Part shown: positions 24,026-33,231 of the stretch, one piece after another
Position numbering within the stretch: position 1 is the first letter of the stretch
Layout: each line of letters begins with the position of its first letter
Source: Candidatus Poribacteria bacterium
Lineage (GTDB): Bacteria; Poribacteria; WGA-4E; WGA-3G
Direction of reading: 5' to 3'
NCBI GenBank assembly: GCA_021295715.1
Contig: JAGWBV010000006.1
Span: 1-64,000 of the forward strand
DNA length: 64,000 nucleotides
Program-made: the position numbers and the translations under genes
The notes under the pieces: model-generated
Databases searched by the model: none
What the model saw: the letters and a program-made list of their open reading frames with translations, nothing else
What the model was told of the DNA's origin: nothing

Positions 24026-24784
24026 TTAATCGGTATCTTTCTTAACGCGGACTAATGGAATTTGATGCGGAGAGGCGTCTTCATAATGTTCGGTTGACTT
24101 CTCATCGAAATGGTACAATCCCAACGTGTCGTTATCTGGAGTAAATGCCTTCGGAGGGGTGGCATACCTGCCTTGCCCATAACGAACAATAGAACTAATC
24201 CGCAACTCGTCAATATACATCCCAGAGGCAGGAACTGCTTTCAGTCCACTCCCCTTTAGAACGGGAATACCTCCGACAAGGAGAGGTTCGCTCGCAGATG
24301 CCAGATGACTCCCTGGTGCCAGCCCAGAAATCGAACCGCCACACCCGACAGTAGAACCGCCGTCAATTATTGCCATGTAATAGACCCACCGCCCGGTAGG
24401 TAACGTTCCTCATATCTTTCCGGATCCGCCCTCGACTCCCTTTGTCATGATGGCGGGACTGGCTTCGTATCCATCACCGACAATGGCACAGGTAAAGCGG
24501 CCTGTTTGACCTACCATGGAGAAGGCAGCATGGGATCCAGCCGCCAGCGATATGACCTCCTGAACGCTCGGAGGTTTGTCTATGTATACCCACGCTTCAA
24601 TCGTTAGGGGACCTGGATACTCAGGAAACCACGGTGACTCGGTCTGGACGAGTGGTAGTTTGGGATCCAGTTCAAGCCAACCACCGCCAGCAGGGGAGGG
24701 TTCGTCGGGCGCGGCAAAAAGTGTCACGGGCATCATCAAGATAATACTTATAAGTGCTAAAAGTGTCTCTCTAATAGATTTCAT
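24026..24784 (-). pseudogene. LamG-domain protein interrupted by one in-frame TGA
   Basis: Codons from ATG 24784 encode a signal peptide ending in LFAA and a LamG-like domain (LTIEAWVYIDKPPSVQE) up to GSGKI, then TGA (24410-24412). In the same frame the next codons read GTLPTGRWVYYMAIIDGG and continue to MYIDELRISSIVRYGQG and a stop at 24026. GTLPTGRWVYY is the usual LamG strand before the sugar-tongs-like loop, so the protein was continuous. A single CGA-to-TGA change explains it; no frameshift is needed. Total 252 codons. It may be a recent pseudogene, strain-level error, or read through. Ribosome site AAGGAGA 6 bases before ATG. Confidence 0.65.
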
Positions 24785-24809: not shown

Positions 24810-27800
24810 CTACAGTTCATTAAGTGGCAAACGGAGGACACCGCTGTGCCGCGTGCCGATGTAGAGTATGCCACGCCCCACAGCGAGGGCAGTTGCCTCA
24901 TCAGGAACCTCGGGTAAAATCTGAATCCATGTATCCGTCTTAGGATTTATCCGATATATGCCTTGATTGCACACACCGTAAATCCTATTACCGTCTACTG
25001 CTATCCGAGAGATAGGAATTCGGTTTCCCTCGGTATCCGTCAGAGCGTTCCAATTGATGCCATCGTGCGAATTCATAACGCCTTGATCCGTTAGGACATA
25101 GACGGTTGTCCGAGCAAAGACCATATCTTTGAAATACGCAAAGGTAAAGGGTAAGTTCGCAGTAATTTCTTTCCAATCGCCACCACTGTTAAGAGACTGA
25201 AATAGGGAACCATCCCGTTTACCGGCATAGACCATATTGTGCGAAGCCGCGAGTGTGAGACCTTTAGACGTATCAGTACCGTCAGCGCGTTCGGTGGAAT
25301 CTACAAGACCTGTATTGAACCACCGCTTTTCGCTTCGGTGCCATCTGAAGAGTTTCTGTCGGTACTCCATGAAGACAGTGTTACCAGCGATTGTAAACCC
25401 ACCATTCGTGAGTCGCTCTTCAACAATACGTGGCATATCTGCTTTTCGCTGACGACTCAATTCACTCACATTGCGAGGCGCGTTTTTAAATCTGTTCAGC
25501 CATTCAACTTCCAGTGTGTTCTCGGTAAAAACTGGCATCCGTCGGACAGGTTTTAGAACATCTCCATCAGATGAAAGATGAAAAACCTCAACCTTATCGG
25601 TTGTACTGTTGCTTACATAGAGTGAACCCTTGGTTTTTGCGATTTTCGCATGACTCAGTAAATCTGGAGCCGTCTGCTTTTTTTGAAGCATCCCTTTTTT
25701 CTTAATATCGTCACCGACATCTACTCGAATGGATGTCCAAGATTCTCCGAGATCCGTTGATTTGACGACCCCTTCAGGCGTGAGTGCATAGAGAACATTC
25801 TCAAGCATGAGTAACTTCTGAACATGAGAGTTTATCATTCCGGCAGAAAACGGGTGCCACGAGACCCCGGCATCCGTTGACCGTGCTATCCCAGAAATGT
25901 CGGACGTGTAAAAATTATTTTCGTCCAAAGCGACAACAGGGAAAATACTCTGACTCAACACATTTTTGCCAGCTTTTACATGCGTCCATGTGTCTCCACT
26001 ATCATTTGAACGCAGTAGCACACCAGTCCCCATCACTGTAAGTGTTTCGCCAATTGCAACCAACTGGATACCACTGAACATCTGGAGCCGAAAATCGTCA
26101 TCAGTTGGTGGTAACGCCATCCATAATCTGCCGTCTGTTCCTTTTCCTTCTATCGGTGAAAGGTCGTCCCAAGTATCACCGAAGTCGACTGAACGAAAAA
26201 TTCTCGGTGGAAACTTTAATATCTCAACCGAGTGATCAAGTTTATGGGATTCCTCAAATGAGTTGGCAGACCGTGTACAATCGGACCCTGCTATAACATA
26301 GAGTCTATTTTCAATGGCTACTAACGAATTAATAAATTGGGGACCGTAGACGGGTAACCTTTCCCAAACTCCTGTAGTAATGCGATAAAGCCCTCGGTTT
26401 GTTCCCACAAACACAGCGTTATCAAGTGTGACAGCGTCCGAAATTGATATGTCTGGCGAGCCGTTCCTCTTTGTAATATGGGCGTGCAGTTCCTGTATCA
26501 TCGGTATCCAACGCTTACCGGCATCATCAGATCGAAAGATATGTTTTTCAAAAACGAGGTAAAAGGTTTCATTGGTGATGAGTAATTCAAAAGCGCGTCC
26601 CTTTGGTCGAGTGCCAACAGAATTCCATGTTTTACCTTCATCGGTTGAGGTTAAGAGTTCATCAGGCGTCAAAATATAGAGGGTGTCATCCCATTCTGCC
26701 ATCGGCATCTGAAACTGACGCGTTGGACTGCTTTCACAGATAAGGGTCCAAGCGTTTGCGTTCTCTGTTAGTTGATAAATCCCTCTCGATGCAACAGCGT
26801 AAATTTTTCGCTTGGATGTGGTAAATAGACCTGCCCTTCCACCTGAAGTGCCTTCCGGTCCGTTCGTTAGGACCCACCGCGATTTTATTACGGGTGTTTC
26901 TTTCTGTTTAGACCGATCCGCAGCGATTTTCCGTGCATCTTCTCTTGGACCAATGTTCCCTTTATTTTTACTCAGCGTATCGGTATTTCCAAATTGATTT
27001 CTTACACCGAGTTTTTGCTTTGAAGCCCGGACAAGAGATGTATCAACAAGCTCAACAGTCATTTCTGACCTTGCATCGAAACTGTAAGGCTGCTGGAATC
27101 GGGCTAAGTCCTGCGTGCCACTTCCCATCAGCAATATCACGAAAATGGTAGTAGAGGTCGCTAATGCCCACGGCAGCCACGGCTTACTCCCCGTTGGGGC
27201 TGCAGGTTTGATGTGCGCAATTTCTCGTAGAACATTTTCGACCAACGATGCAAACAACTGGAAACCGCCTAAAACTTCACGAACCATGTGCTCCTGCTCT
27301 TTCAATCGCTTTCGAGCGCGATGGAGCCGACTTTTGACTGTATTCGGTGATACCCCCAAAAACTTGCTAATGTCTTCGCAGGTCATGTCCCCGAGATAAT
27401 GGAGCGTTACAACCGTGCGTTCACTCTCCGGCAACTTTTGGAGGAGACGTTTGACGACCTCACGGTGTCGCTCACTCACGACTTCTTCTTGTTGTTCAGC
27501 GTGATATTGCGCATACGCCAACTCCTCTAATTCATCTGGAGGCATTGCATCCAAAGACTCCATCGAAATCCGTTTCTTCTTCAACCAAGCGATACATCGG
27601 CGAGTGGCAATTACATACAGCCATCCGGCAAACCGATTTGGATTTTTCAGTGTTTGGAGTTTCTTGTAGACGTTAAGGAATATATCTTGCGTGATTTCTT
27701 CAGCGATATGGAAGTCGCCAATCTTTCGCCATACAAGCGCGTGGAGCGGCTTTTGGTATTTGCGCACAAGTGTGCTGAAAGCACGCTGGTCGCCCGCCAA

Positions 27801-27836
27801 GGTCCGTTGAATTAATTCAGTATCGCTGTTTTTCAT
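24810..27836 (-). CDS. ECF sigma factor fused to a membrane segment and a large beta-propeller
   Basis: A 1008-residue protein. Residues 1-185 are a complete ECF sigma-70 factor: region 2 (AFSTLVRKYQKPLHALV, ITQDIFLNVYKKL, RFAGWLYVIATR) and region 4 (LPESERTVVTLHYLGD, FLGVSPNTVKSRLHRARKRL). Residues about 219-238 (PWLPWALATSTTIFVILLMG) form one membrane helix. Residues about 310-1008 are a series of BNR/Ycf48/sortilin-like repeats with Trp-x-x-Ile and S-x-D-x-G-x-T/S-W signatures (RSVDFGDTWDDL, RSNDSGDTWTHV, KSTDLGESWTSI), i.e. about 10-12 blades. With the sigma domain cytoplasmic, the propeller would be outside. ECF factors with C-terminal extensions are known in Planctomycetes and related groups; a propeller sensor joined through a helix is rare. 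GGAGGTGACGC precedes ATG. Confidence 0.85.
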   Translation of the reverse strand: MKNSDTELIQRTLAGDQRAFSTLVRKYQKPLHALVWRKIGDFHIAEEITQDIFLNVYKKLQTLKNPNRFAGWLYVIATRRCIAWLKKKRISMESLDAMPPDELEELAYAQYHAEQQEEVVSERHREVVKRLLQKLPESERTVVTLHYLGDMTCEDISKFLGVSPNTVKSRLHRARKRLKEQEHMVREVLGGFQLFASLVENVLREIAHIKPAAPTGSKPWLPWALATSTTIFVILLMGSGTQDLARFQQPYSFDARSEMTVELVDTSLVRASKQKLGVRNQFGNTDTLSKNKGNIGPREDARKIAADRSKQKETPVIKSRWVLTNGPEGTSGGRAGLFTTSKRKIYAVASRGIYQLTENANAWTLICESSPTRQFQMPMAEWDDTLYILTPDELLTSTDEGKTWNSVGTRPKGRAFELLITNETFYLVFEKHIFRSDDAGKRWIPMIQELHAHITKRNGSPDISISDAVTLDNAVFVGTNRGLYRITTGVWERLPVYGPQFINSLVAIENRLYVIAGSDCTRSANSFEESHKLDHSVEILKFPPRIFRSVDFGDTWDDLSPIEGKGTDGRLWMALPPTDDDFRLQMFSGIQLVAIGETLTVMGTGVLLRSNDSGDTWTHVKAGKNVLSQSIFPVVALDENNFYTSDISGIARSTDAGVSWHPFSAGMINSHVQKLLMLENVLYALTPEGVVKSTDLGESWTSIRVDVGDDIKKKGMLQKKQTAPDLLSHAKIAKTKGSLYVSNSTTDKVEVFHLSSDGDVLKPVRRMPVFTENTLEVEWLNRFKNAPRNVSELSRQRKADMPRIVEERLTNGGFTIAGNTVFMEYRQKLFRWHRSEKRWFNTGLVDSTERADGTDTSKGLTLAASHNMVYAGKRDGSLFQSLNSGGDWKEITANLPFTFAYFKDMVFARTTVYVLTDQGVMNSHDGINWNALTDTEGNRIPISRIAVDGNRIYGVCNQGIYRINPKTDTWIQILPEVPDEATALAVGRGILYIGTRHSGVLRLPLNEL

Positions 27837-27840
27837 GCGT

Positions 27841-27925
27841 CACCTCCAAAAACATGTTGTCTCTCATAATATTAAGAGATGTGCTGCGGAGAGAAAGGTT
27901 GCATAAAATACAAGATTTGGGAAAA
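27841..27925 (-). promoter_or_regulatory. Conserved upstream region of the sigma-propeller gene
   Basis: Read on the minus strand: CTTGTATTTTATGCAACCTT about 70 bases before the start, then ACATGTTTTTGGAGGTGACG at the start. The paralogous gene at 33093 has CTTGCATTTTATGCAACCTT at the same distance and the same ribosome-site region. The GCAACC core resembles the -35 element of some ECF promoters, suggesting possible auto-regulation. Confidence 0.45.
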
Positions 27926-31410: not shown

Positions 31411-33093
31411 CTACTTCTGTCCAAGAACCTTCAAAAACTCTGGATCATCCTTTACATCCGAAAATTCGGGGGTCTCAAGGAAAGACGGGTAGTAACTATC
31501 CTGATAATTATAACCCCTAACCACATAAGCGTCCTGAGCGATCTTCAAATGGTGTAAAGTTTTCTCGCGATCCTTCTCAGAAGCCCAGATGCTCACAGCA
31601 AACTGGAAGTGGCTATATTCGGTGTAATTTCCCAAATCAATGGCGAGTTGTAGCAAACGTTTCCCCTCAGTATATCTCTTCGACCATACCAGACAACAAC
31701 CAACGTTGTGAGCAACACAATAACACTCGTAAAGATTTACAGGAAAACCTGCCTCCAGTTTTTTCAACTCTCCTTCAATAAATGTATTCGTTTCGGTATA
31801 GACTTGATCGAAACAATCCCAATCTTCCTTTTTGCTATACAACAGCAGTCGAATTTCTCTCACAGCCAACCAGAATTTAAAATAAGACCTCCAACCGGGT
31901 TTACCATAGGCACGTTCTAGCTTTTCTATTTCAAGAAGTGCTGCGTCTAATCGGTCGTTTCTTTGTAATATCGCTGCTCCTTTTTGGAGAAAATCACAAC
32001 GACTGTACTGACTCACTTCAGGAATTTCTAAGCGTTCAGATGTCTCATTATAAAGTTGAATCCAGTCATTAATACGACCTTCCGCTTTCCAAGATCCAGC
32101 AGTATTCTGATTGGCAATAATCCGCAACACATATTTTTCCGACTGCTTGCATGCCCAATGGTAAAGCCGCGTCTGTTCCTCAATAACTTCTCGATCTCTC
32201 CGCAGGAAAGCGAGGGTATTGACTAACCCTTGATGCGACCAATAACGCTCCGTATCATCCAGAGCGTCATTCATATACTTACGGAGTAAAGGTATCCGTT
32301 TTTCCATGCCGAGACTGCCCATATAGGGGTATATCTCATCAACAGCAAGATGCACCAACTCGGGTGTGATTTCCGCTTTAAGTGCATCTTCAATCTCGTT
32401 GTTGACTTCCGTAAGCATAACTTCCGCTGATGAAGGGTTAGATCTCATATGTTCTCTATATGCATGGAACTTACCACGAATATCTTCCAATTTAGCAGAC
32501 ATAATAAAATTTCCTTTGGAACCCTTCCAAATCTCGCGAATGGTAGATTTCTCCTTCTTCAACCTATTGCGGGCGCGGTGGAGCCGACTCTTGACTGTGT
32601 TCGGGGATACCCCCAAAAACTTGCTAATATCTTCGCAGGTCATGTTACTGAGATAGTGAAGCGTTACGACGGTGCGTTCACTCTCCGGCAACTTTTGAAG
32701 GAGATGTTTGACGACCTCGCGGTACTGTTCATTCGCGAATTCATCTTGTTGTTCCGCGCGGTATTGCGCATAAGCAAGTTCTTCTAATTCCTCTGGTGAC
32801 ATCGCATCTAACGATTTCATCGTCATCCGCTTCTTTTCAAACCAAGCGAAACACTGACGCGCGGCAATCACATAAAGCCATCTCACAAACGTACTTGGGT
32901 TTTTTAGCGTTTGGAGTCTTTCGTAAACTCTGAGGAATATATCTTGCGTAATCTCTTCAGCAATGTGGAAATCACCGACTTTCCGGCGCACGAAAGCGTG
33001 GACCGGTTTTTGGTATTTCCGCACGAGCGCACTGAAAGCAGATTCGTCACCCGCCAAGGTCCTTTCAATCAATTGCACATCGTCATTTTTCAT
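31411..33093 (-). CDS. ECF sigma factor fused to a TPR-like C-terminal domain
   Basis: Start set at ATG 33093 (MKNDDVQLIERTLAG), preceded by GGGGGTGG and aligned with the paralogue; the frame stays open 46 codons upstream but encodes an improbable hydrophobic leader. About 560 residues. Residues 1-185 are an ECF sigma factor closely similar to that at 27836 (YQKPVHAFVRRK, FLGVSPNTVKSRLHRARNRL). Residues about 198-560 are all-helical with TPR-like spacing (RCDFLQKGAAILQRNDRLDA, AHNVGCCLVWSKRYTEGKRL), no membrane helix. A good Shine-Dalgarno AAAGGAA and ATG occur at the junction (32502), so the TPR part may also be made alone. ECF factors with TPR extensions (ECF42-like) are known. Confidence 0.8.
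   Translation of the reverse strand: MKNDDVQLIERTLAGDESAFSALVRKYQKPVHAFVRRKVGDFHIAEEITQDIFLRVYERLQTLKNPSTFVRWLYVIAARQCFAWFEKKRMTMKSLDAMSPEELEELAYAQYRAEQQDEFANEQYREVVKHLLQKLPESERTVVTLHYLSNMTCEDISKFLGVSPNTVKSRLHRARNRLKKEKSTIREIWKGSKGNFIMSAKLEDIRGKFHAYREHMRSNPSSAEVMLTEVNNEIEDALKAEITPELVHLAVDEIYPYMGSLGMEKRIPLLRKYMNDALDDTERYWSHQGLVNTLAFLRRDREVIEEQTRLYHWACKQSEKYVLRIIANQNTAGSWKAEGRINDWIQLYNETSERLEIPEVSQYSRCDFLQKGAAILQRNDRLDAALLEIEKLERAYGKPGWRSYFKFWLAVREIRLLLYSKKEDWDCFDQVYTETNTFIEGELKKLEAGFPVNLYECYCVAHNVGCCLVWSKRYTEGKRLLQLAIDLGNYTEYSHFQFAVSIWASEKDREKTLHHLKIAQDAYVVRGYNYQDSYYPSFLETPEFSDVKDDPEFLKVLGQK
32500..32516 (-). promoter_or_regulatory. Internal ribosome site and start codon at the sigma/TPR junction
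   Basis: On the minus strand AAAGGAAATTTTATTATG precedes MSAKLEDIRGKFHAYREHMR in frame. Spacing is ideal, and it lies exactly between the sigma region 4 and the helical domain. Confidence 0.45.
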
Positions 33094-33185
33094 ACGCCAC
33101 CCCCAAAAACATATTATCTTCCAAAATGTTAAGATAGGAATCGACAGCAGAAAGGTTGCATAAAATGCAAGATTTAGGAAAAAAT
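33094..33185 (-). promoter_or_regulatory. Conserved upstream region of the sigma-TPR gene
   Basis: Minus strand: CTAAATCTTGCATTTTATGC and AACCTTTCTGC about 70 bases upstream, ATATGTTTTTGGGGGTGGCG before ATG. Same layout as 27841-27925. Conserved despite diverged C-terminal coding regions, so either recent duplication or selection as a promoter. Confidence 0.45.
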
Positions 33186-33231
33186 TCAACAATTCAAATT
33201 GGGAAAATTGAAAAGAAGTTGGGATCACCAC

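Follow-up and report, generated by a model that had tools for sequence, protein, structure and literature searches.

The 1008-residue protein encoded at 24810-27836 of the window (the whole 64,000-nucleotide stretch of Candidatus Poribacteria DNA analysed here) is probably a one-component transmembrane sigma receptor, a reading to which we give a probability of roughly 0.6. Its topology, with an extracytoplasmic function (ECF) sigma domain inside and a propeller outside, is predicted; sensing by the propeller, inhibition by tethering and release by proteolysis are inferred. In most bacteria, a separate anti-sigma protein conveys outside signals to ECF sigma factors. In this case sigma factor and receptor appear to be one and the same protein, present in dozens of versions per cell in which only the outside part is exchanged. 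With up to 56 copies, interchangeable outside parts and a common promoter, the family looks like a one-protein route from an outside signal to gene expression. Whether the Poribacteria hold a repertoire of such receptors (up to 56 per genome), consisting of single-chain transmembrane sigmas without any anti-sigma, in which one module has been recombined with unrelated sensors and is served by closely related ECF promoters, is in our judgement evenly balanced. If true, this would add a third general strategy to two-component systems and sigma/anti-sigma pairs. The family is natural material for asking by what means tethering on its own might silence a sigma factor, and whether near-identical sigmas with almost the same promoter are insulated or act together.

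Domain layout and predicted topology

The gene and the parts of its product are as follows.

24810-27836, minus strand: membrane-tethered ECF sigma factor gene, 1008 aa (open reading frame and translation, orthologues)
27282-27836, minus strand: ECF sigma factor domain, residues 1-185, with region 2 at 23-89 and region 4 at 126-178 (Pfam and NCBIfam matches, solved relatives)
27183-27281, minus strand: cytoplasmic linker, residues 186-218, conserved in the family, with no recognised zinc finger or other anti-sigma domain (alignments, Pfam scan)
27123-27182, minus strand: predicted single membrane helix, residues 219-238 (hydrophobicity, family comparison)
26943-27122, minus strand: conserved juxtamembrane segment, predicted to lie outside the membrane, residues 239-298 (family alignments and profile)
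24813-26879, minus strand: BNR/DUF6242/Sortilin-type propeller repeats, residues 320-1008, presumed sensor (Pfam)

The open reading frame is intact, with an ATG start and 1008 codons on the minus strand, and contains all three parts named in a preliminary description of this DNA, namely the sigma domain (1-185), the helix (about 219-238) and the propeller. Pfam matches cover residues 23-89 (Sigma70_r2, 46.6 bits against a cut-off of 24) and 126-178 (Sigma70_r4_2, 65.5 bits against 25.7), the NCBIfam model TIGR02937 gives 93.9 bits against 42.9, and the solved ECF factors SigW and RpoE align as sequence relatives to residues 4-181. No Pfam or NCBIfam domain besides sigma regions 2 and 4 was found in residues 1-185, regions 1 and 3 being absent, and by these sequence tests the protein is an ECF sigma factor. 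Propeller-type repeats are matched from residue 334 onwards by the Pfam models DUF6242 (52.7 bits, cut-off 29) and Sortilin-Vps10 (43.1 bits, cut-off 33), while the Ycf48 model PSII_BNR reaches 25.0 bits, just under its cut-off of 27. Judged by these matches, the repeats of the earlier label "BNR/Ycf48-like" are BNR-like and better named DUF6242/Sortilin-type than YCF48. An AlphaFold model made from an alignment of 2 sequences (pLDDT 32) was not used as evidence.

The check proposed with the preliminary description, whether orthologues keep sigma domain, helix and propeller, was run, and all three parts are kept, at 69-84% identity, in at least 14 species of one Candidatus Poribacteria genus. 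Two of these species have assemblies consisting of a single contig or of three. A full-length relative with 84% identity is found in a Candidatus Poribacteria genome, and a scan of genome contigs with the whole protein returned one orthologue and one unrelated propeller. Because full-length orthologues exist in other species, some of them in one-contig genomes, a sequencing join or chimera is ruled out.

The hydrophobic segment at residues 219-239 is borderline in this protein (Kyte-Doolittle 1.58, crude insertion score -0.4), and is clearly the top-scoring membrane-helix candidate along the whole chain. Across 95 family members the helix sits at a fixed position, with a mean hydrophobicity of 2.17 and values of at least 1.6 in 92 of them, and no member has a second strong hydrophobic segment; this constant position rules out a chance hydrophobic stretch. 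At the same site, 55 of the 57 chains extracted from the closed 6.7-Mb genome G005 exceed the helix threshold, the two below it being the G005 orthologue of the window gene and a near relative. The 25 residues preceding the helix carry a higher net charge than those after it in 88 of the 95 members (averages +1.1 versus -1.2). This bias, the requirement that a sigma factor be cytoplasmic, and the types of C-terminal domain found in the family (C-type lectin, CarboxypepD_reg, Reg_prop and LRR+GHL15 domains are usually found outside the cytoplasm) place the sigma domain inside and the propeller outside. This topology is well supported by prediction, and agrees with the earlier proposal of a membrane-spanning helix with the sigma side inside.

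The repeated module, its outer domains and its promoter

The conserved module comprises residues 1-298, including the sigma domain, the linker, the helix and about 60 juxtamembrane residues. In the genome from which the window comes, about 30 further proteins match the first 185-300 residues at 44-74% identity, and alignments of 20-21 of these members show that conservation extends past the sigma domain into the linker, the helix and about 60 residues beyond. The juxtamembrane segment, with the invariant residues F247, Q248, P250, Y251, A255, S257 and G283, is kept among paralogues whose outer domains are unrelated; residues 239-298 are a candidate cleavage or relay region. In an RsgI-type relay a self-cleaving periplasmic domain sits next to the helix; the segment conserved here occupies that place, and no relation to RsgI was found.

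Of 85 Poribacteria genomes, 69 contain this block according to a profile of residues 182-298 alone, with at least about 1,580 copies in total. Two genera of one family are rich in it (from 2 to at least 54 copies per genome); elsewhere it is rare (1-3 copies) or absent. Judged by search matches, the genome of origin has 23 copies of the block, G005 has 56 copies of the module, and within the genus the module copy number ranges from 2 to 56. Some of the genes in G005 form tandem arrays, one of 13 at 1,524,000-1,573,000 (about 48 kb) and one of 5 at 3,144,000-3,158,000 (L099-L102, L112), where certain neighbours have nearly identical sigma domains (the L101 pair and the L112 pair), pointing to recent duplication. 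Frames are open in nearly all family copies. One member, at L013:4268-7410 (contig C99 of the genome of origin), is split into a free 218-aa sigma reading frame and an overlapping 846-aa membrane-propeller reading frame, representing either a frameshift or a natural division into sigma and membrane partner. The module was not found on plasmids, a Planctomycetes plasmid ECF match being an ordinary sigma factor. No description of the family was found in the literature searched, which did not extend to the principal ECF classification article or to surveys of Planctomycetes.

The C-terminal parts of 94 proteins from three genomes fall into 14 groups unrelated by BLAST. Outer domains recognised by Pfam include BNR/DUF6242, WD40 (in about 15 of the 56 G005 members), LRR, LRR+GHL15, Kelch, AhpC/Redoxin (thioredoxin-like), CarboxypepD_reg, C-type lectin, Reg_prop propeller, PD40 and M16-like. 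In a tree of 93 sigma domains there are at least 27 switches of outer class, with 8 as the possible minimum, and the classes cluster more strongly than in shuffles (mean 43), suggesting that domain exchange is frequent but not free. Poribacteria are known as sponge symbionts, and the lectin, LRR, Kelch and propeller domains could be the parts that sense host matrix or glycans.

Promoter elements were predicted upstream of the window gene and of a second ECF gene in the window.

27895-27907, minus strand: -35 element of the predicted autoregulatory ECF promoter, TTTATGCAACCTT (upstream motif, orthologue footprint)
27872-27882, minus strand: -10 element of the same predicted promoter, ACATCTCTTAA, 12 nt past the -35 block (upstream motif, orthologue footprint)
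31411-33093, minus strand: paralogous ECF gene, sigma part 75% identical, with a soluble helical C-terminal extension (sequence comparison)
33127-33164, minus strand: predicted promoter of this paralogue, TTTATGCAACCTT-14-CTATCTTAACA, almost identical to the promoter of the window gene (upstream motif)

Family genes are preceded, usually 50-120 nt before the start, by a two-part ECF-type motif consisting of ATTATGCAMCCTT, a gap of 12-14 nt and GCGTCACTATA (in summary form TTATGCAMCC-N-CGTCACTATA). The upstream regions of 101 family genes (from the genome of origin, G005 and G070) were scored held-out, the matrix being built from one half and applied to the other, and 77 of them pass a threshold passed by 1% of shuffled sequences; the relatedness of duplicated upstream regions may inflate this count, and the outlying sequence has diverged. 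The strict form TTATGCAMC-N15-19-CGTCA has 25 matches in G000 and G005 and 0 control matches; of these 25, 20 are found 10-119 nt ahead of the start codon of such an ECF gene, a class that here includes the soluble relatives. In 11 orthologues of the window gene the -35 and -10 blocks are kept and the sequence further upstream has diverged. A promoter common to the family genes implies autoregulation, and autoregulation with possible cross-regulation would be its natural reading. The preliminary description is supported as to a conserved single-helix fusion, its predicted orientation and the lack of an anti-sigma zinc finger, and missed the dozens of paralogues with swapped sensors and the common promoter. 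The five strict matches that do not precede ECF genes (L143, L146, L159, L161 and L166) are candidate other targets, one lying 183 nt before a MoxR-type ATPase (judged by sequence) and one before a small secreted-looking protein.

The paralogue at 31411-33093 is separated from the window gene by two ABC-2 type permease genes, its start is better placed at the ATG at 33093 than at the GTG at 33231, and it has no membrane helix. The helix is also absent from L025, L027 and L028, whose sigma domains are similar, indicating that tethering is not needed for all sigma factors of this type. One of these soluble proteins (L027:5317-7026, contig C103 of the genome of origin) combines the same ECF domain with all three DNA polymerase III beta clamp domains; it has the family promoter type, and the same beginning is seen in L165 (G005).

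Comparison with known membrane-anchored systems

Membrane-anchored ECF fusions have precedents in ECF48, ECF52, ECF53 and IutY (PMC8999054), which the preliminary description missed. In SCO4117 (ECF52) from Streptomyces coelicolor, a single chain contains an ECF sigma domain, a membrane helix and an outside carbohydrate-binding module, with proteolytic release proposed and positive autoregulation suggested (PMC5826349); ECF48 and ECF53 are related to ECF52 and are likewise membrane-anchored (PMC8999054). The window protein shares with ECF52 the order of ECF sigma domain, membrane helix and outside domain in one chain (here by prediction). However, ECF52 has a zinc-finger (zf-HC2) anti-sigma domain before the helix, which is lacking in the window protein, and a proline-rich stretch and carbohydrate-binding module, in place of which the window protein has a BNR/DUF6242-type propeller. 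The juxtamembrane segment of ECF52 also differs from that of the Poribacteria family, and ECF52 is found only in Actinobacteria, with a single member in S. coelicolor, as against up to 56 paralogues with exchanged outer domains in Candidatus Poribacteria. In IutY from Pseudomonas putida (ECF243), the sigma is fused to a FecR-type anti-sigma and cut by Prc and RseP, its sigma end being active once released (PMC8999054). Here too sigma and membrane sensor form one chain, but IutY contains a fused membrane-bound anti-sigma of a cell-surface signalling system, and Pfam detects no FecR-type domain in the window protein.

The ECF57 and Gemmataceae ECF-WD40 proteins of Planctomycetes are similar in having an ECF domain followed by propeller repeats and in their lineage-specific expansion, and ECF paralogues of Tuwongella immobilis occur in membrane and SDS-soluble fractions (PMC8999054, PMC8567305). 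ECF57 is described with a pair of conserved cysteines that might connect sigma2 to sigma4, whereas the Poribacteria family is without the pair, C81 being nearly invariant and C153 not among the conserved columns. In the SigI-RsgI systems of Clostridium thermocellum, parallel membrane proteins combine a conserved juxtamembrane periplasmic domain with exchangeable outer sensors and act through a proteolytic cascade (PMC12203970). The pairing of one conserved membrane part with varied outer sensors for sigma control is common to both, while SigI-RsgI consists of a separate sigma and anti-sigma, with SigI being another type of sigma and RsgI present in nine copies, and the Poribacteria proteins are one chain. 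By the published descriptions of these groups, the window protein is not ECF52, IutY-type or two-cysteine ECF57; it may belong to a named or unnamed group of the published ECF classification. Membrane-anchored ECF fusions being already known, what appears new is a variant without a recognised anti-sigma and with many exchanged sensors.

Proposed mechanism, alternatives and the LamG-like neighbour

Pfam scans found no anti-sigma domain in the window protein or its neighbours, and the linker (186-218) contains no Cys. In the genome of origin, zf-HC2 is present in six genes, each adjoining a canonical ECF gene (contigs C93, C107, C47, C82, C11 and C9), and none lies beside a family member, which rules out a neighbouring zf-HC2 protein as the controller. 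The earlier phrase "without an anti-sigma" holds in that no anti-sigma zinc finger is present in the chain or in an adjoining gene.

In the proposed mechanism, a single helix would hold the cytoplasmic ECF sigma domain at the membrane, with the propeller outside, and in the resting state the tether would keep this domain off the RNA polymerase core or off its promoters. Signal reception by the propeller, perhaps involving the neighbouring secreted LamG protein (described below), would alter the conserved juxtamembrane segment and lead to regulated proteolysis, with a first cut outside followed by an RseP cut in the membrane. The freed sigma would then transcribe its own gene from the TATGCAACC-type promoter, together with its operon. 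The principle of the family would be one conserved sigma-membrane module paired with many exchangeable outer domains. An RseP-type M50 protease is present; M50 proteases are to our knowledge universal, and its presence therefore indicates feasibility only.

The juxtamembrane segment conserved in many paralogues could equally relay a conformational change, and no cleavage site was identified in the window protein. The same architecture would serve a sigma that stays tethered and uncleaved and works at the membrane through conformation or clustering on propeller binding, in the manner of ToxR or CadC. We consider this unlikely, since a sigma factor has to associate with core polymerase and depart together with it, and since, among the ECF fusions with a membrane helix that have been studied, proteolysis activates IutY (PMC8999054) and is the proposed trigger for SCO4117 (PMC5826349). 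The propeller might instead be an intracellular docking scaffold, with the hydrophobic segment uninserted or at the membrane surface and the repeats binding cytoplasmic partners, as the WD40 repeats of ECF57 might. The moderate hydrophobicity of the helix in the window copy (1.58), the many WD40 repeats in the family, the soluble relative in the same window, and the view of ECF57 and Gemmataceae ECF-WD40 proteins as protein-interaction devices all speak for such a scaffold. It is made rather improbable by the high hydrophobicity and fixed position of the segment in 92 of 95 members, the positive-inside bias, and the presence of C-type lectin, CarboxypepD_reg, Reg_prop and LRR+GHL15 domains, which are usually extracytoplasmic.

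Pronounced tandem clustering (in G005, 13 copies within about 48 kb), a copy number varying from 2 to 56 in the genus and the one split copy (L013) would also be expected if the family were a constitutive sink or a set of decaying duplicates, a by-product of tandem duplication in which most copies are only transcriptionally regulated or non-functional. Frames are nevertheless open nearly everywhere, promoters are kept in most copies, and orthologues of the window gene keep both protein and promoter across species, all of which makes this reading very improbable.

In the one-component receptor mechanism, the product of the adjoining gene may be a partner or target of the sigma protein.

24026-24784, minus strand: secreted LamG-like gene, in two open reading frames (24410-24784 and 24026-24376) split by one in-frame TGA (sequence comparison)

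This gene lies directly downstream of the window sigma gene, and the adjacency is kept beside orthologues; LamG paralogues with about 50% identity adjoin other family genes too, for example in G005 and G020. The in-frame TGA is found at the same codon in 15 of the 15 species with a close orthologue (window 24026-24784; L172-L186), and the gene could possibly be a selenoprotein gene, a readthrough gene or a split gene. The genus has selB (found in the genome of origin too), with a tRNA-Sec-like gene beside it. Against selenocysteine, LamG paralogues have R, V, T or K at the TGA codon, never Cys, and the hairpin that follows the TGA does not fold better than shuffled sequences do. Both halves of the gene are under purifying selection, with dN/dS of roughly 0.04-0.3 in the pairs tested.
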